A stretch of 64,000 bases of DNA, taken from the NCBI GenBank assembly GCA_902809825.1, contig LR778114.1:1054001-1118000 (forward strand). The letters are read 5' to 3'. Every line of letters begins with the position of its first letter. Positions within the stretch are counted from its first letter, which is position 1. A program made the position numbers and the translations under genes. Positions 27,350 to 41,131 of the stretch are shown one piece after another. This DNA comes from Candidatus Hydrogenisulfobacillus filiaventi. GTDB lineage: Bacteria; Bacillota; Sulfobacillia; Sulfobacillales; R501. Under the pieces are notes generated by a model. It did no database searches. It was not told the DNA's origin and was given only the letters and a program-made list of their open reading frames with translations.

Positions 27350-29050
27350 ATGCTGGAGAATCTGGCCATCCACAACTTCGGTATCATGGCCGACAGCGTC
27401 ATCGACTGGGAGCCCGGCCTCAACGTGGTCACGGGGGAATCCGGTGCCGGGAAGTCGCTATTGGTGGAGGCCCTCGACACCGTGCTGGGGGCGCGCGCCA
27501 CGGCCGACCGCATCGGGCCCTGGGACGATGCCGCCCGCATCCGGGCCAGCTTCCGGGTAGGGGCGCAGCACCCGGTCTGGCAGGCGGCCGCCGCCTGGGG
27601 GCTGGAGCCTGATGAGGTGCTCATCGTCCAGCGCGAGTGGGGCCGCGACGGGCGTTCCCTCTTCCGCGTCCAGGGCCGGCCGGTCCCGGCCGCGGCCGTG
27701 CGGGAGCTGGCGGACTGCGGCCTGATGGAGCTCAGCGGGCAGCATCAGCATCAGCGCTGGCTCCGGCCCCATGCCCTGACCGGATGGCTGGACGAGGCCG
27801 GCGGCCTCGAGGGGTTACGCGCCGCGGTGGAGGAGGCCTGGGCAGCGTGGCGGCAGGCGGTCGAGGCCCTGGAGGAACTGCGCGGGCAGGCCCCCGACCC
27901 GGCGACGGTGGAGGCCTGGCGGGAGACGGTGGCTGAAATTGGGCAGGCAGGACTGAGCCCGGACGAGGAAGCCCGCCTGGAGGACGAGATCCGGCGCCTG
28001 CGTGCGGCCCGGCGCCTCATGGAAGGCTACGCCGCCTTCCGCGGCAATCTCGAGGGCGACGGCGACAGCCCCGGGGCGGAGGCGGCGCTGGCCGAGGCAG
28101 CCCGGGCCCTGGCCGCCCTGGCCGGGGTGGATCCAGCCCTGGCGCCGGCGCAGGCGCTGCTGGAAGGGGCGTTGGCCGATGTGGAGGAGGCGCGCCGTCA
28201 GGCCGGCGAATGGTATGCCAACCTGGACCTGGACCCCTCCCGGCTGGAAGCGCTGGAGGCGCGCCTGGACCGCATCGCGCGCCTCAAGCGCCGTTACGGA
28301 CCCACGGTGGAGGCCGTGCTGGCCGCCGGGGAGGAGGCCCGGCGCCGGTTGGAGGCCTGGGAAAACCGGGCCTGGGAGGAGCGGCAGGCCCAACGCCGGG
28401 AGGCAGCGGCGGCGGACCGCTACCGCGAGGCAGCGGCAGCCCTGGCCGCCGCCCGGGAAGAGGCCGCCCGCCGCCTGGAGCCCGAATTGCAGCGGCTGGT
28501 CCGGGCGATGGGCATGGAACACGCCCTGGTGGAACTGGTCTTGGAGGCGGCTGAACCTGGGCCCCGCGGCACCGAGGAGCCGGTGCTGCGTTTTTCCGCC
28601 AACCGCGGGCAGCCGCTGCGGCCGTTTCAGAAGGTGGCTTCCGGCGGTGAACTGGCCCGTCTGGGGCTGGCTCTGACCGTGTCCGGAGCCGGCGGCGGCG
28701 GCGAACCGCTGGTGTTCGACGAGGTCGATAGCGGGACCAGCGGACACGGGGCCCGCCAGGTCGCCGCCCTGCTGGCTGCCCTGGCCCGCACCAGACAGGT
28801 GATCGTGGTCTCTCATCAGGCGGTGGTGGCCTCCCGCGCCGGGGCCCATTATCACGTTGACAAGCTGGCCCAGGAGGGACGCACCCGTTCCCAGGTGCGC
28901 CGGCTGGAGCCGGCGGAACGGGTGACCGAGATCGCCCGCATGTTGAGCGGTGACACCACTGAGGCGTCGCTGCGCCATGCCCGCGAGCTGCTGGTATTGG
29001 CGGCCGCCGGGGAGGAGGACGCGAAACCGGGTGCCACAACCAATGGCTGA
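27350..29050 (+). CDS. recN: DNA repair protein RecN
   Basis: SMC-like ATPase acting early in double-strand-break repair. 566 aa. Walker A GESGAGKS at residues 29-36; long charged coiled coils (about 150-380); the signature motif KVASGGELARLGLAL and the Walker B region EPLVFDEVDSGTSGHGARQV near the C-terminus, then QVIVVSHQAVVASRAGAHY. AGGGGAGCC precedes the ATG. Overlaps the following gene by eight bases. Confidence 0.95.
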   Translation: MLENLAIHNFGIMADSVIDWEPGLNVVTGESGAGKSLLVEALDTVLGARATADRIGPWDDAARIRASFRVGAQHPVWQAAAAWGLEPDEVLIVQREWGRDGRSLFRVQGRPVPAAAVRELADCGLMELSGQHQHQRWLRPHALTGWLDEAGGLEGLRAAVEEAWAAWRQAVEALEELRGQAPDPATVEAWRETVAEIGQAGLSPDEEARLEDEIRRLRAARRLMEGYAAFRGNLEGDGDSPGAEAALAEAARALAALAGVDPALAPAQALLEGALADVEEARRQAGEWYANLDLDPSRLEALEARLDRIARLKRRYGPTVEAVLAAGEEARRRLEAWENRAWEERQAQRREAAAADRYREAAAALAAAREEAARRLEPELQRLVRAMGMEHALVELVLEAAEPGPRGTEEPVLRFSANRGQPLRPFQKVASGGELARLGLALTVSGAGGGGEPLVFDEVDSGTSGHGARQVAALLAALARTRQVIVVSHQAVVASRAGAHYHVDKLAQEGRTRSQVRRLEPAERVTEIARMLSGDTTEASLRHARELLVLAAAGEEDAKPGATTNG

Positions 29051-29486
29051 ACTGAGCCGGCTGCTATCGGTCAACCGTGTCCTGAGCGTGGCGCTGCTGG
29101 CGGCGTTGAGTGCGCAGGTCATTAAATTCCTGTTCTACTGGGGTGCCCGCCGCCGGGCCCGCCTGGACCGGCTGGTGGGGGCGGGCGGGATGCCAAGCTC
29201 GCATTCGGCGATGGTGGCGGCGCTGGCCACAGCCGTCGGGTATGATTACGGCTGGACCAGCGCCCTGTTTGCGGTGAGTTGTGTCTTTGGACTGGTGGTG
29301 CTGTACGACGCCATCGGTGTGCGGCGCACGGTGGGGCTGCAGTCACGCTATTTGAACCGGGTCAGCCGGACCCGGAAGGAATTTGATGTCCTGGATCGCG
29401 AATTCCCGGAATACGTGGGCCACACCCCCCGGGAGGTGGTGGCCGGCGCACTTTGGGGTATCCTCATTTCCTGGTGGCTGCATTAG
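29043..29486 (+). CDS. divergent PAP2 family membrane protein (YuiD-like)
   Basis: 147 aa integral membrane protein. SAQVIKFLFYWGARRRA, then GGMPSSHSAMVAALATAVG, LVVLYDAIGVRR, and GHTPREVVAGALWGILISWW define the DUF212/divergent PAP2 family, presumed phosphatases of membrane lipids (the PSSHS and GHTP blocks carry the phosphatase-like residues). ATG at 29043 overlaps recN. Confidence 0.9.
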   Translation: MAELSRLLSVNRVLSVALLAALSAQVIKFLFYWGARRRARLDRLVGAGGMPSSHSAMVAALATAVGYDYGWTSALFAVSCVFGLVVLYDAIGVRRTVGLQSRYLNRVSRTRKEFDVLDREFPEYVGHTPREVVAGALWGILISWWLH

Positions 29487-29519
29487 TCCGGGCGGAGGGC
29501 CGGGGGCGGGAGGCACGGA

Positions 29520-30599
29520 TTGGCACGGATTGTCATTGCGAGTTTACCCATCGGAACCGGGCATGACGTGGCCGCGGAGGCTTTGGCCGCGGCCTTGAGT
29601 GCCGGCGGCCATGAGGTGGTTTTTTCCCAACACCTGGTGCCGGCCGCGGCCCTGCAGACGCACGCCTATTTTGCGGCGGTGCGTTACGTGCCGGGATGGT
29701 ACGGCCGGCTCTTCCGCTGGGTGGAACATGCCCCGGCGGCCTGGCCCCGCTACCGACGCCACTGGCGCCGGGTGGGTGAACGCCGCCTGCTGGCGGCCTA
29801 CCGGGAATTGGAGCCGGACATCATCGTGGCGACCCACCCCTTCGCCCTCACCGCCTGGGGATGGGTCAAGAGCCGGTACCCGGAGTTGCGGCTGGTGGGG
29901 GTGCTGACCGACCTCTCGGTGCACCGGTTCTGGTGGGAACCGGAAGCGGACGGTTACGCAGTCTGGTTTCCCGAACAGCGCCTGGAGCTGATGCGCTGGG
30001 GCTGCGACCCGGACCGCATCCACGCCACCGGCATCCCCATCCGCGCCGCGTTTGCCCATCCCGGCAGCGGGGTTTATGCCCCCGGCACCGGCCCCATCCT
30101 CCTGCTGGGCGGGGGCCTGGGCATCGGCCCCTATCGCCGGATCCTGCGCCGGCTGGCGGTGCTGGACCACCCGGTGGTGGCCATCTGCGGGCACAATGAG
30201 GCGCTCCGGCTCAGCCTCTTGACCGAGTCCTGGCCGTCCCACGTCAGTATTCGCGGTTTCGAGCCGGATATGCCGGGCCTGATGCGGCAGGCGGCGCTGG
30301 TGGTCGGCAAGCCGGGCGGGGTGACGGCGGCTGAGGTGGCGCAGTCCCGCGTGCCCTGGATTTTGAGCCACTGGATTGCCGGACAGGAGGAGATCAACCG
30401 CGACCGGCTGGTGGCGCACGGTCTGGCCGTCCGGGAACAGGGGGATCTCGTCGCCCTGGCCGAGCGTCTCCTGGCTCCGGGGCCGGAACGTGAACGCATG
30501 CGGCAGCAGCAGGCCCTCTGGCGCCGGCCGGACGCCGCGCGCCACATCGCGGCCTGGCTGGCACAGCTTGAAGCGGCACGCAACTTCCGCAATTTCTAG
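29520..30599 (+). CDS. MGDG-synthase-type glycosyltransferase
   Basis: 359 aa GT-B enzyme resembling diacylglycerol glucosyl/galactosyltransferases and MurG-like enzymes. ASLPIGTGHDVAAEALAAAL at the N-terminus (nucleotide loop), DIIVATHPFALTAWGW, VLTDLSVHRFWW, IHATGIPIRAAF, LLLGGGLGIGP, and KPGGVTAAEVAQSRVPWIL for sugar-nucleotide binding. Likely makes membrane glycolipid anchors; substrate not determinable. TTG start with GGGAGG seven bases upstream. Confidence 0.85.
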   Translation: MARIVIASLPIGTGHDVAAEALAAALSAGGHEVVFSQHLVPAAALQTHAYFAAVRYVPGWYGRLFRWVEHAPAAWPRYRRHWRRVGERRLLAAYRELEPDIIVATHPFALTAWGWVKSRYPELRLVGVLTDLSVHRFWWEPEADGYAVWFPEQRLELMRWGCDPDRIHATGIPIRAAFAHPGSGVYAPGTGPILLLGGGLGIGPYRRILRRLAVLDHPVVAICGHNEALRLSLLTESWPSHVSIRGFEPDMPGLMRQAALVVGKPGGVTAAEVAQSRVPWILSHWIAGQEEINRDRLVAHGLAVREQGDLVALAERLLAPGPERERMRQQQALWRRPDAARHIAAWLAQLEAARNFRNF

Positions 30600-30609
30600 T
30601 CCCCGCACC

Positions 30610-30662
30610 AGGGCCCCTGCCCGCTGTCCCCGTCCCGGGGGCGCAGCCGGCAGGGGCCCTTC
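30610..30662 (+). terminator. terminator hairpin after glycosyltransferase
   Basis: Perfect 12-bp outer stem AGGGCCCCTGCC (30610-30621) and GGCAGGGGCCCT (30649-30660), with an additional GC-rich pairing inside the loop, then TTCC. It separates the recN group from spoIVB. Confidence 0.65.
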
Positions 30663-30787
30663 CTTGCCTGCCAGCCCGCTGCCGCCGTTTCCGGGGATGA
30701 GGCCCCGGGCCCGGCGGCACGGTAACGTCACCGCTTCACGCAGCCGCTTCAGCGGCCGCCGCGCACGCACGAAAGGGGGCGAGCAGG

Positions 30788-31972
30788 GTGCAGACGGAGC
30801 AGGCGGTCCGGCGGCGACGGCGGGCGCGGGTCCGGCGCGGGACCGCGCTGGCCGCCGCGCTGTTCGGATGGCTGTTGACGGCAACCCCGGCGGTCCCCGC
30901 CGGGCCGCGGGGGTGGCTGCCGGCGGCGGCGGGGTTATACGGGACGGCCTGGTGGCAGCGGCCGGCCGCGCGGGCTGCCGGCGGTCTGCCCCGGCGGGTG
31001 CGGTTGGGCGGCCTATCCATCGGGGTGGTGGTGCGGGTGCGCGGGCTGGTGGTCCTGGGCGTCGACGGGCAGGATCCCGCGGCCCGGGCCGGTATCCGGC
31101 CCGGGGAGGTGATCACGGCCGCTCAGGGGCAGCCGCTGCGGTCGCGGGCGCAACTGGCCGCCCTCACCGCGGCGGCCGGCCGGGCCCACCGAGGTGTGGA
31201 ACTGGAGGTCGCGGACGGGGGCAGCCTGCATCGGATACGGGTGCGGCCGGTGCGGGCGCCCGGCACCCGCGGCTGGCGGCTTGGGGTCACGGTGCAGGCC
31301 CGCTTCAGCGGGGTGGGCACCCTGAGCTTCTGGAGTGCAGACGGCCGCCGGTTCGTGGCCCTGGGCCACAGCGTGGTGCGCGCGGCGGCGGGGCCGGTGC
31401 CGGTGGAGGGGGCGGCGTATCCGGCCCGGGTGGTGGACATCGTGCCCAGCACGCCCGGGGAGCCGGGCGAGAAGATCGGGGTGCTGAACGACCCGCCGCA
31501 GCCCTTGGGCCGGGTGGAGCGCAACGGCCGTTTCGGCATCAGCGGCCGGACAGAGGGGACGGCCCCGGGGAGCCCGCTGCTGCCGCTGGCTGCTCCGACT
31601 GAGGTGCATCCGGGACCGGCCTGGCTGTATACCGCCCTGCGGGGCAGCCGCCCGCAACGGTTCCGGGTGCGGGTGCTCATGACCCTGCCGCAGGACCGGC
31701 CGCGCCAACGGGGGATCCTGTTTCAGGTGACCGATCCCCGCCTGTTGTCAGCAGCTGGCGGCATCGTGCAGGGGATGAGCGGTAGCCCGCTCGTCCAGGA
31801 CGGCCGGGTGATCGGCGCCGTGACCCATGTCCTGGTCAACCGGCCCCAGCTGGGCTACGCCTGTTATGCCGCCTGGATGGCCCGGGATGCGGGCTGGGGC
31901 CAGCATCCGGGGACGCAAAACGCGAAAACCTTCCCGGGGCGGCAGGAATCGCGGCGGCCGGCGCCGAATTAG
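30788..31972 (+). CDS. spoIVB: SpoIVB peptidase
   Basis: Serine peptidase of family S55 that signals from the forespore to activate pro-sigma-K processing. 394 aa: an N-terminal hydrophobic export segment (about 19-38); a PDZ domain (VVLGVDGQDPAARAGIRPGE, about 75-150); and the S55 domain with FVALGHSVVRA (catalytic His) and IVQGMSGSPLVQDGRVIGAV (catalytic Ser). GTG start after GGGGGCGAGCAGG. The spoIVB-spo0A order is conserved from Bacillus to Clostridium. Confidence 0.94.
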   Translation: MQTEQAVRRRRRARVRRGTALAAALFGWLLTATPAVPAGPRGWLPAAAGLYGTAWWQRPAARAAGGLPRRVRLGGLSIGVVVRVRGLVVLGVDGQDPAARAGIRPGEVITAAQGQPLRSRAQLAALTAAAGRAHRGVELEVADGGSLHRIRVRPVRAPGTRGWRLGVTVQARFSGVGTLSFWSADGRRFVALGHSVVRAAAGPVPVEGAAYPARVVDIVPSTPGEPGEKIGVLNDPPQPLGRVERNGRFGISGRTEGTAPGSPLLPLAAPTEVHPGPAWLYTALRGSRPQRFRVRVLMTLPQDRPRQRGILFQVTDPRLLSAAGGIVQGMSGSPLVQDGRVIGAVTHVLVNRPQLGYACYAAWMARDAGWGQHPGTQNAKTFPGRQESRRPAPN

Positions 31973-32006
31973 GGCCCTCGAACGGGATGGTTTTTTCCCG
32001 ACGAAA

Positions 32007-32195
32007 TTCGACACTGACCGGGTGGGCGGCATCCGCCGGTCTCAGCCGGCGCCGCCGGAGGGGCCATCCTCCCGGTCCCCGGTCCGCAGCCGGGCGGGGG
32101 CGGCCGGCGCGGAATCTGTCGCCTCACGGCACTCCCTGACAGGATTTTCGGGCCGCGGCCGGGCCCGGAACAACAGGAGATTGCCCGTTGTCGTA
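32007..32195 (+). promoter_or_regulatory. putative Spo0A boxes upstream of spo0A
   Basis: TTCGACA at 32007-32013 is a perfect reverse 0A box (TGTCGAA), and TGTCGTA at 32189-32195 is a one-mismatch direct box. AGGATTTT at 32141-32148 resembles a sigma-H -35, but no well-spaced -10 was found. The 290-base gap between spoIVB and spo0A holds no other gene. Confidence 0.4.
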
Positions 32196-32262
32196 GAACA
32201 AGGAACATGACGTGCCGAAGGCGGGCCGCGCGGCGCGAGGAACATTGGGCGGAGGGATGCCG

Positions 32263-33054
32263 ATGGCTATCCGGGTGTTGATTGCCGACGACAATCGGGA
32301 ATTCACCGAGTTGCTGCGGGAGGCCATCTCGAACGAGGAAGGTCTGGAGGTGGCCGGGGTTGCCAATCACGGCATGGAAGTGCTGGAATTCCTGGCCGGC
32401 CACCCGGTCGACGTCATCATCCTTGATATCATCATGCCGCACCTGGACGGCATCGGCGTCCTGGAGCGCCTGGCGCAGATGGACATGGAGCATCGGCCCA
32501 AGGTGGTGGTGCTGACCGCTTTCGGGCAAGAGACCATGACCCAGAAGGCCTTGGAGCTGGGGGCCGATTACTACATTCTGAAGCCGTTCAACCTGAAGGT
32601 GCTGGCAGCCCGGGTCAAGCAGCTGGCCGCGGGGGCGGAGGGCGAACGGCGGACGGCGGTGACCACCGCCCCGGCCTCCAAGGTGGCGGTGCTGCCGGTG
32701 CGCCATCTGGATGTGGAGGTCACCAACGTCATCCATGAAATTGGCATCCCGGCCCATATTAAGGGGTATCTTTACCTGCGGGAGGCCATCCTGATGGTCA
32801 TCCACCGTGTGGACCTGCTGAGCGGGGTCACCAAGGAGCTCTACCCGGCCATTGCCGCCAAGTACAAGACCACCCCCAGCCGGGTGGAGCGGGCCATCCG
32901 CCATGCCATCGAGGTGGCCTGGGCACGCGGCAACGTGGACGTCATCAACAGCATCTTCGGGCATACGGTCAACCGCGAGCGCGGCAAGCCCACCAATTCC
33001 GAGTTCATCGCCATGGTGGCCGACAAGCTGCGCATGCAGATGAAGGCCAGCTGA
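32263..33054 (+). CDS. spo0A: sporulation master response regulator Spo0A
   Basis: Phosphorelay-controlled transcription factor initiating sporulation, 263 aa. The receiver domain has acidic pocket D9/D10, phospho-acceptor D55 in [13 protein letters not shown], and the switch lysine in YYILKPF. The C-terminal DNA-binding domain has [40 protein letters not shown], and [20 protein letters not shown] (recognition helix region). Start ATG 32263 has GGAGGG six bases upstream; ATG 32257 directly abuts it. Confidence 0.97.
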
Positions 33055-33103
33055 GGCCCCCCGGCGCGGACGGCCGCGCTCGCAGGCTGAAGGGGGGGCC
33101 GGG

Positions 33104-34174
33104 GTGGAGATCTTCCGGGCCATGGCCGAATACGGCCACGAGGAACTGGTGTTCTGGTACGACCGCGCGAGCGGACTCCGGGCGGTGGTGGCCATTCACG
33201 ACACCACCCTGGGGCCGGCCCTGGGCGGCCTGCGGGTTTGGAACTATCCCTCCGAGGAGGCGATGGTAGAGGACGCCCTGCGGCTCTCCCGGGGCATGAC
33301 CGCCAAGAACAGCGCGATGGGGCTGGACCTGGGTGGGGGCAAGGCTGTCATCTGGGCGGACCGGGCCGCGTATGGTGAGGCACTCTTCCGCGCCTTCGGC
33401 CGGCTGGTGGAGAGTCTGGCCGGCCGGTACATCACGGCCGAGGACGTAGGGGTGGGTCCGGCGGAGATGGCGCTGGTGGCCCGTGAGACCCGTTTCGTTG
33501 GCGGGTTGCCGGAGGGCAGCGGGGATCCTTCCCCGGCCACTGCGCTGGGCGTGCTGGAGGGCATGAAGGCGGCCCTCGCCCATCTGGGCGGCAACGGCCT
33601 GAGCGGCCTGACCGTGGCGGTGCAGGGGCTGGGGCATGTTGGCAGCCTGCTGGCTCACATGCTGGCCGATCAGGGCGCCCGGCTGGTGGTGACCGATCTG
33701 GACCACGAGGCCGGACGCCGCGTCGCGGAGGAGACCGGGGCGCGCTGGGTGGATCCGGGGGCCATCTATGACGAGCCCTGTGACATCTTCGCCCCTTGCG
33801 CCCTGGGCGCGGTGTTGAATGCCGACACCGTCGAACGCCTGCGCTGCCGGATGGTGGCGGGGTCCGCCAACAATCAGCTGGCCACCCCCGCCGACGGCCG
33901 CCGGTTGTGGGAGCGCGGCATCCTGTATGTGCCGGACTTCGTGGTGAACGGCGGCGGCGTTATCAATGTGGCGGAGGAATTCGCCCGCGGGGGGTACCGG
34001 CAGGAGCGGGCCTATGCCCGTGTACGCCGGATCGGGCAGCAGGTGCGGGACATCCTGACGCTGGCGGAGCGGGAGGGGATTCCGCCCTTTGAGGCGGCTG
34101 ACCGGTTCGCCGAGGAGCGGCGGCAGCGCCTGGGGGCAGTTCGCAGGTCGTTCATTCCCCGGCCGCCGGCGTAG
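33104..34174 (+). CDS. leucine dehydrogenase (Glu/Leu/Phe/Val dehydrogenase family)
   Basis: NAD-dependent oxidative deamination of branched-chain amino acids. 356 aa. TTLGPALGGLRVWNYPSEEA, then GMTAKNSAMGLDLGGGKAVI with Lys68 and catalytic Lys80, ITAEDVGVGP, and the Rossmann motif VAVQGLGHVGSLLAHML; C-terminal VPDFVVNGGGVINVAEEF. Length and motifs fit leucine dehydrogenase better than glutamate dehydrogenase; valine or phenylalanine specificity is possible. In Bacillota leucine dehydrogenase supplies branched-chain precursors for spore-formers' lipids, and here it follows spo0A. Confidence 0.9.
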   Translation: MEIFRAMAEYGHEELVFWYDRASGLRAVVAIHDTTLGPALGGLRVWNYPSEEAMVEDALRLSRGMTAKNSAMGLDLGGGKAVIWADRAAYGEALFRAFGRLVESLAGRYITAEDVGVGPAEMALVARETRFVGGLPEGSGDPSPATALGVLEGMKAALAHLGGNGLSGLTVAVQGLGHVGSLLAHMLADQGARLVVTDLDHEAGRRVAEETGARWVDPGAIYDEPCDIFAPCALGAVLNADTVERLRCRMVAGSANNQLATPADGRRLWERGILYVPDFVVNGGGVINVAEEFARGGYRQERAYARVRRIGQQVRDILTLAEREGIPPFEAADRFAEERRQRLGAVRRSFIPRPPA

Positions 34175-34219
34175 GGGTCCCGCTCCACCATAGGCAGGCA
34201 CGAAGGAGTCGGCGGATCG

Positions 34220-34945
34220 ATGGCGGATGAAACGGAGCGGGTGGCGGTATCCGACCTGGAGGAGCTGATTGAGCAGCTCCCCGGGGTGTTGCGCTGCCAG
34301 GTGGTGACGAACGATTGGGGCGGCATTGAGGCCGTCCATGTGTTGAGCTCCCTGGAACGCTCGCCCAAGCAGACGGTGCGGGACATTGAAAGCGCCCTGC
34401 TGGCCCGTTGGCACTTGCGGGTGGACCGGAAGAAGATCTCGGTCGCCCAGGTGGCGGCGGGACGGCCCCAGGGGGGCGAGGCGCCCCGCCTGCGGGTGGC
34501 GGGCTGGGAGGTGGAGCACGATGCGGCCCGGGGGCGGGTAACGGCCACCGTCCTGCTGGCGGCGGCGGAAGGGGAGACGGTCATCCGCGGGGAGTACCGC
34601 GGGGCCTACATCCCCAGCCAACAGCCTCTGCCCATGGCTCTGGCCGCGGTGGAGGCCCTGAACCGCCTGCCCGGCGGCCAGGCCTTTGCCTTGGTGGAAC
34701 TGCGGGAGGTGACTGTGGCCGGGCATCCGGTTTTCCTGGCGGCGGTCAGCCACCTGGGGCCCAACCAGCAGGAGGAGCTCCTGATCGGGACCGCGGTTGC
34801 CGGTCCGGATCGGGCAGCCACCGCCGTGCGGGCGGTGCTGGATGCGGTCAACCGTCGCCTGGGCCGGGTGGCGGTGCAGGGCGCTGCGGCGGTGGCGGCC
34901 TCCCGCCCGCCGTCCCCCGAAGATGGGGAAAAGGAGGACGAATAG
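34220..34945 (+). CDS. conserved hypothetical protein
   Basis: 241 aa, function not recognised. The first 75 residues (LEELIEQLPGVLRCQVV, then GGIEAVHVLSSLERSPKQTV and RKKISVAQV) look like a compact, well-conserved ferredoxin-like or ACT-like fold. The rest is an alpha/beta segment with a hydrophobic core and an acidic, disordered tail (SRPPSPEDGEKEDE). No membrane segment, no cysteine pairs. Good AAGGAGTCGGCGG ribosome site. Co-directional with the Hfq-like gene five bases downstream. Confidence 0.6.
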   Translation: MADETERVAVSDLEELIEQLPGVLRCQVVTNDWGGIEAVHVLSSLERSPKQTVRDIESALLARWHLRVDRKKISVAQVAAGRPQGGEAPRLRVAGWEVEHDAARGRVTATVLLAAAEGETVIRGEYRGAYIPSQQPLPMALAAVEALNRLPGGQAFALVELREVTVAGHPVFLAAVSHLGPNQQEELLIGTAVAGPDRAATAVRAVLDAVNRRLGRVAVQGAAAVAASRPPSPEDGEKEDE

Positions 34946-34950
34946 CGGCC

Positions 34951-35268
34951 ATGTCCAAGGACTGGGTGGAGGTTCCGGCCCGGCCGGCCGGCACGGTGCG
35001 CGCGGGCGGGGTGGGGGCGGCCGCGCCGGCGGCCGCAACCGGCGGCAGCCGCAGCAGCGAGGCACAGAACGCCCTCTACCATCGCTGGATGGCGGAAGGG
35101 ACGCCGTTGGCCCTGCGCCTGCGGGACGGGACCACACTGGAGGCGCGCCTGCTCCGGTACGATACCTACGCCCTGCATCTCCAGGACGCGGAGGGCCGGG
35201 ACTGGCTGGTGTTTAAGCACGCCGTCAACGCCATCGTGCCGCCGTCGCCGGGCGGGGGGGAGAGCTAG
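34951..35268 (+). CDS. Hfq-like Sm-fold RNA-binding protein with N-terminal extension
   Basis: 105 aa. Residues 37-97 follow the Hfq plan: an N-terminal helix (SEAQNALYHRWMAEGTPLAL), an Sm1-like strand block (LRDGTTLEARLLRYDTYALH) and an Sm2 block ending in FKHAVNAIVP (KHA at 89-91), equivalent to the YKHAISTVVP of Hfq. The first 36 residues are an Ala/Gly-rich, probably disordered extension that Hfq lacks. Predicted to bind RNA as a ring. Start ATG five bases after the previous stop, with AAAAGGAGGACG upstream. The call rests on motif reading; pairwise similarity to Hfq is modest. Confidence 0.65.
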   Translation: MSKDWVEVPARPAGTVRAGGVGAAAPAAATGGSRSSEAQNALYHRWMAEGTPLALRLRDGTTLEARLLRYDTYALHLQDAEGRDWLVFKHAVNAIVPPSPGGGES

Positions 35269-35269
35269 G

Positions 35270-35797
35270 GTGGAGACCCGCAGGGGGCCCGGCCGGCAGG
35301 TCTTCCGGGGTCGCGCGCTGGCGGTCCGGGTGGACCCGGTCTGGGTGCGGGGCCGGCCCGCCACCCGCGAGGTCGTGGAGCGGGTCCCGGCGGTGGCCGT
35401 GGTGGCGGAAGCGGCCAGGCGGCGGCTGGTGGTCATCCGCCAGTGGCGCTGGGCGGTCGGGGAGCCGCTGTGGGAGATCCCGGCCGGCAAGATTGACGCG
35501 GGGGAAGCCGCCCTCACGGCAGCGGTGCGGGAATTACAGGAGGAGACAGGCTTCCTGGCCGGCGACTGCCGGCCCGTGTTGTCCATGTACCCTTCCCCCG
35601 GCTACACCACGGAGCGGATCGACCTGTTTTACGCCCGCGACCTCCGGGCCGGCGCGCCCCAGCCGGATGAGGAGGAGGAAATCGGGGTCGAATTGTGGGA
35701 CGAGGACCGGATCCGGCGCGCCCTGGCCGCGGGTGAAGTCCGCAACGCGGTGACTTTGTTGGGCCTCTACTGGTGGTTGGACCAGATGCGGGGCTAA
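35270..35797 (+). CDS. Nudix hydrolase (ADP-ribose pyrophosphatase type)
   Basis: 175 aa. The complete Nudix box GX5EX7REUXEEXGU occurs as GKIDAGEAALTAAVRELQ followed by EETGF (residues 73-95), with WEIPAGKID upstream and SPGYTTERIDLFYARDL downstream, typical of ADP-ribose pyrophosphatases (NudF/YqkG). In Bacillus, yqkG is likewise a neighbour of spoIIM, supporting the call. GTG start overlapping just after the upstream stop. Confidence 0.9.
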   Translation: METRRGPGRQVFRGRALAVRVDPVWVRGRPATREVVERVPAVAVVAEAARRRLVVIRQWRWAVGEPLWEIPAGKIDAGEAALTAAVRELQEETGFLAGDCRPVLSMYPSPGYTTERIDLFYARDLRAGAPQPDEEEEIGVELWDEDRIRRALAAGEVRNAVTLLGLYWWLDQMRG

Positions 35798-35882
35798 CCC
35801 TGCCGCCCTCCGCATAGGATGCGGGTAAGGACGAGCCGGCGGGGGTGGGCTGCATGCTGGCCAAGGTCACGGCCGCCTGGCG

Positions 35883-36467
35883 TTGGGGCGGGGCCGGGCG
35901 GGGGCGGCGTTGCTGGCGTTCGGGGCATTGGGCCTGGGGCTGGCCTTCGGCGCCATGGGCATGCGGGCCTTGACCGCCGCGGAACGGGAGGGGCTGGCGC
36001 AGTTCCTGCTGCAGTTCTGGGGCAACCCGGGACTGGTCCTTCACGCCGCTGCCCCCGCCGCCTTCCGCCGGGCGCTGGCTGCCAATCTCAAGGTGGAAGG
36101 CCTCCTCTATCTGCTGGGCATTTCCGTGGCCGGCATCCCGTTGGTGCCGGTGGTGCTGTTCTTCCGCGGCTTCGTGGCCGGCTTCGCCCTGGCGGCCGTG
36201 GCCACGGCCTTCGGCCCGCGGGGGCCGGCGGCGGTATTGACCTTGCTGGTCCCCGGTAGCCTGCTGCTGCTGCCGGCCTGGTGGTGGACGGCCGGGCAGG
36301 CGCTGGGATTGTCGTGGCGGCTGGTCCATCGGCCCGGCTCCGGCGGATGGGGCCGGGAACTGGCCCGCTTTACCGCCCTGGCGGCCGTCATGGCCGGGGT
36401 GGTGACCCTGGGGACGGCAGTGCAGTGCTTCCTCTCCCCTCTGGCCGCGCATTGGCTGGGCCTCTAG
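35883..36467 (+). CDS. spoIIM: stage II sporulation protein M (possible frameshifted N-terminus)
   Basis: Membrane protein of the SpoIID-SpoIIM-SpoIIP engulfment machine. About 194 aa with five hydrophobic segments. FRRALAANLKVEGLLYLLGI and VVLFFRGFVAGFALAAVATA are in the family-typical positions. The only in-frame start, TTG 35883, has no ribosome site. An ATG at 35854, with a GGGGGTGGG upstream, opens a plausible basic N-terminus (MLAKVTAAWRW) in another frame. A one-base frameshift in the GC-run at about 35885-35910 would join them. Either a sequencing error, a real lesion, or a poor TTG start. Confidence 0.8.
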   Translation: MGRGRAGAALLAFGALGLGLAFGAMGMRALTAAEREGLAQFLLQFWGNPGLVLHAAAPAAFRRALAANLKVEGLLYLLGISVAGIPLVPVVLFFRGFVAGFALAAVATAFGPRGPAAVLTLLVPGSLLLLPAWWWTAGQALGLSWRLVHRPGSGGWGRELARFTALAAVMAGVVTLGTAVQCFLSPLAAHWLGL

Positions 36468-36497
36468 CCCAAGGGAAGGGCTGCCAGCGCGTGCGTG

Positions 36498-36506
36498 TGC
36501 TATAGT
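36498..36506 (+). promoter_or_regulatory. extended -10 promoter of ald
   Basis: TGC-TATAGT (36498-36506), directly followed by GGTAG; about 75 bases before the ald start. No convincing -35. Confidence 0.5.
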
Positions 36507-36578
36507 GGTAGGCGCGGACGGGGCCCGGAGCCCGCGCGGCGGCGCAGGCGCGGCCCGCGGCCAGGAAGGGAGAGAACG

Positions 36579-37697
36579 ATGCGCATCGGGGTACCCAAGG
36601 AGATCAAGCCCGATGAGGATCGGGTGGCACTGACCCCGGCGGGTGTACTGGCCCTGACGCGGGCGGGGCATCAGGTTTTGGTCGAGCAGGGGGCGGGCAC
36701 CGGCAGCGGATTCGCCGACGCCGAGTACCTCCAGGCCGGAGCCCGGCTGCTGCCGGAGGCGGCGGCGGTCTGGTCTGAGGCGGAGATGGTGGTCAAGGTC
36801 AAGGAGCCGCTGCCGGAGGAATACCGTTATTTCCGTGCTGACCTCGTGCTTTTTACCTACCTGCACTTGGCGGCCGCTCCGGAGCTGACCCGGGCCCTGG
36901 TGGAGAGCGGCCTGGGGGCGGTGGCCTATGAAACCGTCCAGCTGGAGGACGGCAGCCTCCCCCTGCTGACGCCCATGAGCGAGGTGGCCGGGCGCATGGC
37001 CCCCCAGGTGGGGGCACAGTTCCTGGAGCGCCCCCAGGGGGGCCGCGGCATCCTGCTGGGCGGGGTGCCGGGGGTGCTGCCGGGCCGGGTGGTGATCATC
37101 GGCGGCGGCATCGTGGGGACCAACGCCGCCCGCATTGCCGTCGGCCTGGGTGCGGATGTGACCCTCATCGATATCAATCCGGAGCGGCTGCGCCAGCTGG
37201 ACGACCTCTTCCACGGCAGTGTGCGCACCCTCATGTCCAACGAATACAACATCGCCGAAGCGGTGCGGACTGCCGACCTCCTAATCGGCGCGGTGCTCAT
37301 CCCCGGGGCCCGGGCCCCCCATCTGGTGAGCGAAGCCATGGTAGCCAGTATGGCGCCCGGCTCGGTGATTGTGGACGTGGCCATCGACCAGGGCGGGTCC
37401 ATCGCGACCATCGACCGCGCCACCACCCACTCCCATCCTACGTACATCCGGCACGGGGTGGTGCACTATGCGGTGGCCAACATTCCCGGGGCGGTCCCGC
37501 GCACCTCCACCCTGGCGCTCACCAACGCCACCCTGCCCTACATCCGCCGGCTGGCCGACCGCGGGCTGCGGGACGCCCTGCGCGAAAGCCCGGCCCTGGC
37601 CCGCGGCCTTAATGTCTACCGCGGGCGGGTGGTCCATCCCGCCGTCGCGGCCGCCACCGGCTTCCCCTCCACCCCGGTGGCCGAGCTGCTGGATTAA
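36579..37697 (+). CDS. ald: alanine dehydrogenase
   Basis: NAD-dependent interconversion of alanine and pyruvate plus ammonia; in spore-formers needed for normal sporulation. 372 aa. [20 protein letters not shown] at the N-terminus, [13 protein letters not shown] with the substrate lysine, LFTYLHLAA with the catalytic histidine, [20 protein letters not shown] as the nucleotide fold, and [31 protein letters not shown] precedes ATG; the frame is open further upstream but overlaps the promoter. Confidence 0.96.
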
Positions 37698-37730
37698 GCG
37701 GCCCGCGCGGGGCCGAAGGAGGCCGGGCCG

Positions 37731-38630
37731 ATGGCGGATGGCGGTCTGCCGCGGGCGGACCAGGCCCTGCGGGAGCGGTTTTTGGCCTACCTGCGGGTGG
37801 AACGCAACCTGTCCCCCCATACGGTGGCGGCCTACGACCGTGACCTGGCGGACCTGGTCCGCTTTGCCGGGCGGCTGCCCGGGCCTGCAGATCGGGATCT
37901 CCTGCTGGCCTACCTGGCGGACCTGCAGCAGCGGGGGCTCACCTCCGCTACCGTGGCCCGGCGCCTGGCGGCGCTGCGGCGGTTCCTGGCTTTCCGGCAG
38001 GACGAGATGCCGGAAGGCAACGACCCCGGGCAGGGGATCCGGAACCCCCGGCCACAGCGAATGTTGCCCGGGGTCCTCAGCCCGGGGGAGGTAGCGCGGT
38101 TACTGACAATGCCCGACCTGGCCTCCCTGGCCGGGCGGCGTGATCGGGCCATGCTGGAGCTCCTGTACGCCACCGGCCTGCGGGTCAGCGAGCTGTTGTC
38201 CCTGACCGTCAACGACTGGTGGACGGATCCGCCCCGGGTCCGCTGCCGCGGCAAGGGAGGCCGCGAGCGGGTGGTACCGATGGGGGAGGAGGCGCGGTAC
38301 CGTCTGGAGGTGTATCTGGCCGAGCGGCCCCGTTGGGTGCGGGGCCGGGATCCCGGGTGGCTGTTCCTGAACCGGCGGGGGCAACGCCTGTCGCGGCAGG
38401 GCTTCTGGAAACGGCTCCGGGCCTATGCGGCGGCGGCAGGGGTGGGGCGGCCGGTGTCGCCGCACACCCTGCGCCATTCCTTCGCCACCCACCTGCTGGA
38501 GAACGGGGCGGACCTGCGGGCGGTCCAGGAGCTGTTGGGTCACCGGGACATCGGCACCACCCAGATTTATACCCACGTCAGCCGCAGCAGCTTGCGCCGG
38601 ATTTACGATCGGAGCCATCCCCGGGCGTAG
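37731..38630 (+). CDS. xerD: site-specific tyrosine recombinase XerD
   Basis: Chromosome-dimer resolving recombinase, 299 aa. N-terminal core-binding SAM-like domain ([19 protein letters not shown]), and a catalytic domain with R151 ([11 protein letters not shown]), K175, H245-x-x-R248 ([20 protein letters not shown]), H271 ([15 protein letters not shown]) and nucleophile Y280. All six catalytic residues are present. GAAGGAGGCCGG precedes ATG. Order xerD-deoB-dacF matches the Bacillus spoIIA neighbourhood. Confidence 0.95.
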
Positions 38631-38694
38631 GCGGCAAGTCCCCGGATGCCGGCGGGCATGCTGTAGGCATCAGCAGCAAGGGGGGAGGAGCACG

Positions 38695-39861
38695 GTGGCG
38701 CGGATCACCCTGATTGTGATCGATTCCGGGGGCATCGGGGCCGCTCCCGACGCCGCCCGGTTCGGCGACGCCGGCGCCAGTACCGTGAGCCACACCGCCG
38801 GGGCAGTCGGAGGGCTGGCGCTGCCCAACCTGGCCCGCCTCGGCCTGGGGGCGCTGACCGCCCTGCCCGGTACGCCCGATGGGGGGCAGGAGGGGGTCGC
38901 GGTCCGTCTGCACCCGGCCTCGGCCGGCAAGGACAGCCTGGCCGGGCATTGGGAAATGATGGGGCTGGTGGTGGAACAGCCCTTCCGGACCTATCCCCAA
39001 GGGTTTCCCGCGCCGGTGGTACAGGCCCTGGAAGAGGCCTTCGGGCGGCCCATCCTGGGCAACGAGGTGGCGTCCGGCACCGAGATCATAGCCCGGCTGG
39101 GGCCGGAACACCTGCGCACCGGGCGGCCCATCGTGTACACCTCCGCGGACAGTGTGCTGCAGATCGCGGCCCACGAGGACGTGGTGCCGGTGGAACAGCT
39201 CTACGACTGGTGCCGGCAGGCCCGGGCTATCATGCAGGGCCCCAACCTGGTGGGCCGCATCATTGCCCGTCCCTTTACCGGCCGGCCGGGGGCCTTCGTG
39301 CGCACCCCCCGGCGGCGGGACTTCACCGTCCCCCCGTCCGGGCCCACCGCCCTCGAAGCCCTGGCTGGGGCGGGGGTGGAGACGGTAGGCGTGGGCAAGA
39401 TCGGGGACATCTTCTCCGGCCGCGGGCTCCAGCGCCACCTGCCCACCAGCGGGGACCGGGACGGCCTGGAACAGACCGCACGGGTGCTGGAGACCTTGGG
39501 CGATCCCGGCTTCCTCTTCGTCAATCTGGTCGATTTCGACAGCAAATACGGGCACCGGCGCGACCCTGAAGGCTATGCCCACGCCCTGAGCGAGCTGGAC
39601 GCCTACCTGCCGCGCCTGGAACGCCTGCTGGGGCCCCATGACCAGCTCTGGATTACGGCCGATCACGGCTGCGACCCCACCTACTCCGGCACCGACCATA
39701 CCCGGGAGGACGTGCCCTGGCTGGCCGCCGGCCCTGCCCTGCGCCCGGCCGTATTGTTGCCCGGCCACACCTTCGCGGACATCGGTGCCACCCTGGGCGC
39801 CCTTTTCGGGGTGGCCGTGCCCGGCCCGGGCCGGCCGCGCCGCAGCCTGCTGCCGGCCTGA
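38695..39861 (+). CDS. deoB: phosphopentomutase
   Basis: Interconverts (deoxy)ribose 1- and 5-phosphates in nucleoside catabolism; alkaline-phosphatase superfamily metalloenzyme. 388 aa. ITLIVIDSGGIGAAPDAARF at the N-terminus, GKDSLAGHWEMMG (phospho-threonine region replaced by the usual KDSxxGHWE block), FVNLVDFDSKYGHRRDPEGY, and DHGCDPTYSGTDHTREDVPW. GTG start after GGGGGGAGGAG. The purine phosphorylase gene that often follows is absent. Confidence 0.95.
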   Translation: MARITLIVIDSGGIGAAPDAARFGDAGASTVSHTAGAVGGLALPNLARLGLGALTALPGTPDGGQEGVAVRLHPASAGKDSLAGHWEMMGLVVEQPFRTYPQGFPAPVVQALEEAFGRPILGNEVASGTEIIARLGPEHLRTGRPIVYTSADSVLQIAAHEDVVPVEQLYDWCRQARAIMQGPNLVGRIIARPFTGRPGAFVRTPRRRDFTVPPSGPTALEALAGAGVETVGVGKIGDIFSGRGLQRHLPTSGDRDGLEQTARVLETLGDPGFLFVNLVDFDSKYGHRRDPEGYAHALSELDAYLPRLERLLGPHDQLWITADHGCDPTYSGTDHTREDVPWLAAGPALRPAVLLPGHTFADIGATLGALFGVAVPGPGRPRRSLLPA

Positions 39862-39937
39862 ATCCAGTCGTATGCCGCCGCCGGCCGGGGCCGATACTAG
39901 CCCCCGGAACATCCGCAGGAGGGGCGGTGGCAGGACG

Positions 39938-41131
39938 ATGGCAACGGGTGGGCGCACGGCAGGCATGCGACGGCGGGTGATGGCCCTGGCCGCCGGCGTC
40001 TGGGTCTGGGCGGGCGGGCTGCTGGCCGGCTGGACCCCCCCTGTGCGGGCGGCGGAAGCGGCTCCAGCGGTTACCGCCCCTTCCGCCATCCTGGTGGACG
40101 CCACCACCGGCGAGGTGCTCTACGCCCGCAACCCCGACCAGGAACGGCCCATGGCCAGTGTGACCAAACTGATGACCCTCTACCTGGCGGTCCGGGCGGT
40201 GGAACAGGGCAAGGTGAAACTGAGCGAGTGGGTTCCGGCGGACGAGGAGGCCTACCGGGTGGGCGGCTCCCAGGTCTGGCTGGAGCCGGGCGAGTTTCTC
40301 AGCTATGACCAGATGCTGAAGGCGGTGGCGGTAGGGTCCGCCAACGACGCGGCCTACGCCCTGGCCAAGTTCCTCTCCGGTTCGGTGGAGGCCTTCGTGG
40401 CCCGCATGAACCAGGAGGCCGCCCGCCTGGGTATGCGGCACACCCACTTCGCCAATCCACATGGCCTGCCGCAGGCGGAGCACTACACCACCGCCCGCGA
40501 CCTGGCCATCCTGGCCCGGGCTGCGGTCCGTTCCCCGTTGCTGCTGCACTATACCGCCATGCGCGAGGACCGGTCCATCCGCAACGGCAAGGGCGGGCAC
40601 CTCTGGCTGGTCAACCACAACCGGCTGCTGCGGGTCTATCCAGGGGCAGACGGACTCAAGACCGGCTACACCACCGAGGCGGGCTATTGCCTGGCCGCCA
40701 CTGCCCGCCGCGGGGACACACGCCTGATCGCGGTCCTGCTGGGGGATCCGACCCCCAAAGCGCGGGTGGAGGACGCCGTGCGCCTGCTTAACTGGGGTTA
40801 CGGCCACTTCCGCACCCTGCTGGTGGCGCCGGCGGGCCGGGTGCTGGGGGAGGTGCCGGTCCGCCATGGACGGGCCGGCCGGGTGGCGGCGGTGGCCGCC
40901 CGGCCCCTGGCCCTGACCGTGCCCCTGACGGCCGGCGGCCGCCCGGCCCCGGTCGTCCGCCTGGCTGAGCGGGTGACCGCCCCCGTGCAGGCGGGCCAGA
41001 TCCTGGGCGAAGTCCGGGTGACCCTGGACGGCCGCACCGCCACGGTGCCCCTGGTGGCGGCGCGGGCGGTGGCCAGCACCAGCCCCGCGCGCCTGACCTG
41101 GGACTACTTCTGGCGGATTATCGGCGGCTGA
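39938..41131 (+). CDS. dacF: D-alanyl-D-alanine carboxypeptidase (DacF type)
   Basis: Low-molecular-mass penicillin-binding protein trimming peptidoglycan side chains; DacF acts in the forespore. 397 aa. A signal peptide (about residues 10-38) precedes the S11 domain with SVTK (S74-K77), SAN (S134-N136) and KTG (K241-G243). A C-terminal beta-rich PBP5-like domain follows. It ends with a C-terminal amphipathic segment (LTWDYFWRIIGG) for membrane association. ATG start behind AGGACG; an alternative ATG lies at 39965. Confidence 0.93.
   Translation: MATGGRTAGMRRRVMALAAGVWVWAGGLLAGWTPPVRAAEAAPAVTAPSAILVDATTGEVLYARNPDQERPMASVTKLMTLYLAVRAVEQGKVKLSEWVPADEEAYRVGGSQVWLEPGEFLSYDQMLKAVAVGSANDAAYALAKFLSGSVEAFVARMNQEAARLGMRHTHFANPHGLPQAEHYTTARDLAILARAAVRSPLLLHYTAMREDRSIRNGKGGHLWLVNHNRLLRVYPGADGLKTGYTTEAGYCLAATARRGDTRLIAVLLGDPTPKARVEDAVRLLNWGYGHFRTLLVAPAGRVLGEVPVRHGRAGRVAAVAARPLALTVPLTAGGRPAPVVRLAERVTAPVQAGQILGEVRVTLDGRTATVPLVAARAVASTSPARLTWDYFWRIIGG

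Follow-up and report, generated by a model that had tools for sequence, protein, structure and literature searches.

The protein encoded at positions 34951-35268 of the forward strand, which we call HfqL (P0001), is supported by profile searches and a predicted structure as a divergent Hfq-like Sm protein, and it is the sole kind of Hfq found in its order, where the miaA-linked Hfq of the class was not found. The Sm/Hfq domain itself is known; what appears new is a lineage, displaced and equipped with an N-terminal arm, that replaces classic Hfq in most of the order. A literature search found no description of the protein, nor of such a lineage in the accessible portions of the sources, and the supplementary trees of PMC11607428 might include some members. 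The window, i.e., the whole stretch of DNA analysed, spans 64,000 nucleotides (G000:C1:1054001-1118000) of a genome, G000, which is a single contig of 2,570,337 bases and is given as 100% complete.

The reading frame of HfqL opens with an ATG, and a chance frame or a wrong frame was rejected because the conservation among relatives starts at this same ATG, at 34951. A longer open frame (34408-35268, TTG start, 286 aa) is the HfqL frame opened from within the upstream gene P0002 and not a separate gene. Given the short gaps on both sides of HfqL, P0002, HfqL and the NUDIX hydrolase gene look like one operon (Table 1). Among relatives, within the reach of their contigs, the gene order is spoIVB, spo0A, ELFV dehydrogenase, P0002, HfqL, NUDIX and spoIIM, followed in some loci by ald and xerD, and the window shows the same series. 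In the loci of G085-G088, no NUDIX gene was found between HfqL and the next genes. The best NCBIfam match of the ELFV dehydrogenase is tryptophan dehydrogenase ScyB, at 342 bits against a cut-off of 600. The surroundings (27350-41131, forward strand) are what we take to be a sporulation and cell-cycle cluster, with presumed homologues of recN, spoIVB, spo0A, ald, xerD, deoB and dacF named from their open frames; SpoIIM and NUDIX in this cluster were identified by profile. The base composition of the window is about 71% G+C, and an Rfam search over it returned one tRNA and nothing else.

Table 1. Features of the HfqL locus, in window coordinates.
Feature	Position	Strand	Evidence
HfqL, Hfq-like Sm protein, 105 aa	34951..35268	+	ORF, Pfam, predicted structure, structure matches
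Likely ribosome-binding site of HfqL, AAAGGAGG	34930..34937	+	Read from sequence
HfqL conserved N-terminal motif, residues 1-17, MSKDWVEVPARPAGTVR	34951..35001	+	Alignment of relatives
HfqL variable linker, residues 18-33	35002..35049	+	Alignment, low pLDDT
HfqL Sm core, residues 34-97: N-terminal helix, Sm1, Sm2 (VFKHAVNAIVP)	35050..35241	+	Pfam, predicted structure
P0002, conserved uncharacterised gene directly upstream of HfqL, 5-nt gap	34220..34945	+	Homologue searches, predicted structure
NUDIX hydrolase, 1-nt gap after HfqL	35270..35797	+	Profile, relatives' loci
Glu/Leu/Phe/Val-type dehydrogenase (ELFV), conserved upstream neighbour	33104..34174	+	Profile, relatives' loci
SpoIIM homologue, conserved downstream neighbour	35883..36467	+	Profile, relatives' loci

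The family assignment relies on profiles and on a predicted structure. The Pfam Hfq profile PF17209 matches residues 42-99 with an E of 1.1e-6 and 28.5 bits (29.1 bits in the genome search), above its cut-off of 27, and a phmmer search of the PDB returned Hfq chains, with a best E of 7e-4. The NCBIfam model for the RNA chaperone Hfq equivalog, TIGR02383, scores 26.6 bits against a curated cut-off of 61.7, so that HfqL is not filed as an Hfq equivalog. A search of PHROGs gave no credible match. An AlphaFold2 monomer model built from 26 aligned sequences presents a helix at residues 34-49 and five strands reaching residue 96, with a mean pLDDT, taken by tens of residues, of 96-97 at 41-90, 90 at 91-100, 67 at 31-40 and 47-53 at 1-30; residues 1-30 are without secondary structure. 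Searched with Foldseek, the model ranks Hfq crystal structures first (E about 1e-5), and a second aligner superposes it on E. coli Hfq (5uk7_E) with a Z of 12.4 and 1.4 Å over 66 residues, a best match with which Synechocystis Hfq (3hfo_A) and others tie at the same Z. The original prediction of a divergent Hfq-like protein, with an N-terminal helix, Sm1-like strands and the FKHAVNAIVP segment as the equivalent of Sm2, was thus borne out in all these elements, and the monomer model gives an Sm fold where a non-Sm fold would have spoken against it. Weak Hfq-like calls can be wrong: FlgV (BB0268), formerly annotated as an atypical Hfq, has an entirely different structure according to the accessible part of PMC11607428. 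Unlike FlgV, HfqL is predicted to adopt the Sm fold, which rules out a misannotation of that type.

In the Sm fold, the N-terminal helix and the order of Sm1 and Sm2, HfqL resembles classic Hfq as known from E. coli, B. subtilis and Listeria (PF17209). It differs from it by its low score for the equivalog, by the absence of a linkage to miaA and by an N-terminal arm carrying a conserved motif. Among the 26 aligned proteins, all from families f1 and f3, residues E7, P9 and R17 of the arm are each conserved in 24 and W5 in 15, and residues 20-33 vary. The linker (18-33) is rich in Ala and Gly in the window protein and often rich in K, S and P in relatives, so base composition probably explains its Ala/Gly look. 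Pooled over 13 pairs, which share species and include some saturated dS values, pN/pS reaches 0.32 in the linker, against 0.18 in residues 1-17 and 0.17 in the core. HfqL is under purifying selection and its N-terminal motif is as constrained as the Sm core; the openness of the 26 frames is no evidence here, because the genes were chosen as open frames. What had been described as a low-complexity, Ala/Gly-rich extension of about 36 residues is therefore a variable linker at residues 18-33, preceded by a conserved motif at residues 1-17, which that description does not fit. By eye, similar short patches stand near the likely starts of non-canonical Hfqs outside these two families: RWVRIG (G087), RYVRTG (G089), RFIRIG (f34), QFIEFIP and LIRFRP (f35) and GFVRLP (G057); in G043, no clear N-terminal patch was seen by eye.

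The residues of the RNA sites were read in E. coli numbering through the phmmer alignment to PDB chains, their roles being taken from the accessible text of PMC10628458 and PMC5379935. The proximal uridine pocket is complete in the window protein, as in classic Hfq: Q8, the aromatic residue 42, K56 and H57 are Q39, Y73, K89 and H90. Among the 26 aligned proteins, Q8, a Tyr at 42 and K56 are each present in 26. His57, said in the portions of PMC10628458 and PMC5379935 at hand to contact ribose or the 3' end, is kept in three proteins (the window's, L084 and L087) and replaced by Ser in 12 and Gln in 11, i.e., lost in 23 of the 25 aligned relatives of the window protein. Position 60 (residue 93 of P0001) is an Arg in 22 of the 23 proteins without His57 and in none of the three with it; the loss of H57 and the gain of Arg60 may be one inherited event.

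The other two RNA sites depart from classic Hfq. The basic patch of the rim (16/17/19) is absent from the window protein, which has no Arg there (M47, A48 and G50). Position 16 is hydrophobic in all 26 aligned proteins, position 17 is Arg in one, and seven carry Arg or Lys at position 19, so that some members do have a basic residue on the rim; in Gram-positive Hfq generally the patch is described as less conserved, in the part of PMC10628458 that we could consult. On the distal face, Y25, N28, I30 and Q33 are replaced by R56, D59, T61 and E64; across the alignment, Y25 and I30 occur in no protein, N28 and Q33 in two each, G29 in 25 and L32 in 16. R16, Y25 and I30 are thus each found in 0 of 26. 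Judged from sequence, HfqL of the window keeps its proximal pocket whole and is missing the rim patch, together with the greater part of the distal site. Outside this alignment, the K-H pair is kept in f34, f26, G058 and the best f35 matches, and the second Hfq copy of G069 reads FRSA at that site. Family f2 reads RW, RH or RQ instead of the pair, and one member, G087, has lost Q8 by hand alignment; on residue identity, the pocket of f2 looks broken.

A PF17209 search over the whole genome of the window, with E up to 10, matched a single place, HfqL, and an LSM profile gave no match in the same genome at the same limit. The miaA gene lies elsewhere (G000:C1:1262835-1263548, reverse strand), presumably between a MutL-like frame before it and, after it, a convergent frame that we take from its sequence to resemble a cell-wall hydrolase. 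The observation that no miaA adjoins HfqL therefore holds, and miaA in this genome has no hfq beside it. CsrA is encoded elsewhere in G000. Of the two options first proposed, that of the genome's only Hfq fits these searches; that of a second Sm protein finds no support in this genome and fits in a wider sense, G058 having both a P0002-linked and a miaA-linked Hfq.

The order comprises 42 genomes, in GTDB families f1 (one genome, that of the window), f3 (34) and f2 (seven). In 35 of them (1/1, 28/34 and 6/7, respectively), HfqL directly follows P0002, usually with some tens of nucleotides between the matches and about 300 nt in G108 and G109. The f2 members were recognised by match coordinates in G089 and G090 and by position and mutual similarity in G085-G088, where the assignments are weak, resting on place, mutual similarity and one profile match (G087, E 0.0018). 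In G084, G093, G094, G096, G099, G100 and G123 (63% complete), a search at E up to 0.01 found HfqL neither at this spot nor in the rest of the genome, so it is dispensable; matches broken by stops in G099 (E 0.0995) and G100 (E 0.0607) were too weak to be called remnants. A weak second Hfq match was noted in G109 (C1:267023-267196, E 0.0039). The miaA gene was found in 41 of the 42 genomes, and a second Hfq beside it was rejected, for the genome of the window and for all 30 miaA loci fetched from the order, some of which end at a contig edge (two profiles, E up to 0.01). Among the named relatives with the P0002 locus are Sulfobacillus thermotolerans, S. harzensis and S. benefaciens, along with many MAGs. 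At the 80 of 92 named P0002 loci that were retained, HfqL is present by profile (E up to 0.01) in 26 and absent by profile in 54; close relatives searched for with the single protein in genome contigs gave none.

Across the class, canonical Hfq (PF17209 E of 1e-25 or better) is found in 65 of 154 genomes and its gene lies directly 3' of miaA in all 30 loci fetched (from 30 of the 65). Non-canonical Hfq is found in 45 genomes: 35 of the order, two of f34, five of f35 and one each of f23, f26 and f27. Both kinds occur together in one genome, G058 (f27), against about 19 expected (65 x 45 / 154, kinship ignored); there, the second copy (L118) adjoins P0002 and the other (L023) is linked to miaA. 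We built a tree of 30 canonical class rows and 40 non-canonical ones, mobile-clade proteins being left out; it has 66 columns, is unrooted, and shows unsettled bootstraps and several long branches, with L118 among the longest. The 30 canonical rows, L023 included, form one group at 100/100 with HfqL outside, and L118 groups with the HfqL proteins of the order at 98/81. The presence of both kinds in G058 points to HfqL being a distinct lineage, within the limits of a short alignment and long branches. The Hfqs of f34, f35, f26 and f23 fall on the canonical side of the 98/81 branch, that of f23 although its gene is linked to P0002, so neither a single origin of all non-canonical Hfqs nor membership of these four in the HfqL lineage is supported. 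In f34, f35 and f26, the contig with the non-canonical Hfq is not the one that bears the best P0002 match. Non-canonical Hfqs of these families (L194-L201 and L083) carry long N-terminal extensions rich in proline and alanine, and G069 carries two non-canonical Hfqs. A match in G057 (C30, L202, E 0.042) was judged from its sequence to be due to chance.

The reading that we prefer, and hold with about even confidence, is that of a non-canonical Hfq-type Sm ring which would hold U-rich RNA, anneal poorly and dock to a partner through its arms. HfqL would form a hexamer whose proximal face could hold U-rich single-stranded RNA, e.g., the 3' ends of transcripts, and which, with the rim patch gone, would do little active annealing. 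The arms would exit at the proximal face, where the helix of Hfq sits, and could dock the ring to a partner, most likely, at a guess from gene position, the operon neighbour P0002. Such a ring would be a tethered holder of RNA more than a free matchmaker of sRNAs. Against this reading stand the loss of H57 in 23 of 26 proteins, the pocket changes of f2, the Arg or Lys at position 19 in seven proteins, the wider spread of P0002 than of HfqL, the separate contigs of the two genes in f34, f35 and f26, and the absence of HfqL from 7 of the 42 genomes.

We consider it unlikely, though well worth weighing, that HfqL is simply the working Hfq of its lineage, a global sRNA/mRNA chaperone with a new address and a new sequence doing the same job. 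The complete proximal pocket of the window protein, a PF17209 match above the cut-off, the status of sole Hfq of the genome and the rarity with which the two kinds meet (in 65 and 45 genomes out of 154, together in one) would all suit such a chaperone; R16, Y25 and I30 are missing from all 26 aligned proteins, however, the equivalog score falls far short (26.6 against 61.7) and 7 of the 42 genomes have no detectable Hfq. We also judge it unlikely that the Sm ring of HfqL has become a protein scaffold whose role in RNA would be small or absent. Its precedent would be the Hfq of cyanobacteria, a divergent Hfq with a role in a protein complex, as proposed likewise for HfqL: in the accessible text of PMC8092324, this protein is part of a complex at the pilus base, where it may act so, and binds PilB and EbsA, its RNA substrates not being identified there. 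The conserved N-terminal motif, the loss of H57 in 23 of 26 proteins and of rim and distal residues, and the pocket changes of f2 are what a scaffold would lead one to expect, but Q8, the aromatic residue 42 and K56, which a pure scaffold does not need, are invariant in all 26 proteins, and the window protein retains H57.

The likeness to cyanobacterial Hfq also extends to the Sm fold and the tied match to 3hfo_A. PMC11607428, as far as its text was accessible, splits Hfq into a classic clade and a mobile one and describes the latter as spread by transfer. We hold it very improbable that HfqL was acquired laterally from this mobile, cyanobacterial-type clade. The transfer described for the clade and the weak matches of HfqL to its models, under their cut-offs (Hfq_1, PF21979, 22.2 of 27 bits; Hfq_rel_Cyano, NF047718, 18.3 of 52 bits), would suit such an origin, but the scores are weaker there than for classic Hfq, the best E over the 26 members being 3.6e-12 for PF17209 against 1e-5 for PF21979 and, with the NCBIfam models, 1e-13 (TIGR02383) against 7.2e-6 (cyanobacterial). 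To our knowledge, cyanobacterial and Hfq_1 proteins carry no N-terminal motif. That HfqL is a decaying remnant leaving the lineage, as its strong divergence in f2 and the seven genomes where it was not found could suggest, is scarcely credible and was already disfavoured by pN/pS values of 0.17-0.18 in core and motif against 0.32 in the linker.

The candidate partner, P0002, matches no Pfam or NCBIfam family over the cut-off and was itself matched in 59 of 61 relatives, in agreement with the original prediction that HfqL follows a conserved gene of no known family. A match to the P0002 family is present in 128 of the 154 class genomes, in a few by a distant paralogue only, and relatives also occur in Armatimonadota and Clostridium records, mostly without HfqL. 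Many relatives have a second, more distant paralogue, and in four loci of the class without HfqL (L067, L075, L077 and L130) a gene of about 370-405 aa, which we take to resemble DUF3866, lies between P0002 and NUDIX, in the place that HfqL takes in the order. The predicted structure of P0002 (mean pLDDT 89.8) combines an N-terminal ferredoxin-like domain, whose structure matches (Z about 8) belong to a fold too common to assign a function, with a part that has the fold of the regulatory domain of LeuA-type synthases, a domain that binds leucine or isoleucine: residues 88-214 align to residues 493-643 of M. tuberculosis LeuA with a Z of 9.7, 2.6 Å over 109 residues and 23% identity. Foldseek gives an E of 1.5e-5 for this pair with a poor superposition of the whole chain. 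The Pfam LeuA_dimer profile does not match P0002 itself; at E up to 1 it hits six of the 50 relatives that were aligned, the best with 7.2e-4. P0002 shares the predicted fold of this regulatory domain, has no LeuA catalytic domain and carries another N-terminal domain; a stand-alone amino-acid sensor near spo0A is possible on the predicted fold. We think it improbable that HfqL and P0002 work together as a single device, an arm-tethered RNA ring on an amino-acid sensor, gated by a metabolite, in the spo0A locus. P0002 is older and more widespread than HfqL and 54 of its 80 loci lack it, so that the link may be one of shared location only. If the device were real, the RNA binding or the location of HfqL would be gated by branched-chain amino acids, which would make it a metabolite-controlled Hfq.

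For the family, HfqL amounts to a natural experiment that asks which elements of Hfq are important. High G+C has been proposed to make the rim patch necessary, a view relayed by the review PMC10628458 in the part accessible to us; most of this order, including a genome whose window has about 71% G+C, makes do with an Hfq devoid of the arginine patch of the rim. For the organism, a specific candidate for the partner lies next to spo0A, master gene of sporulation: P0002, whose predicted fold resembles that of a sensor.
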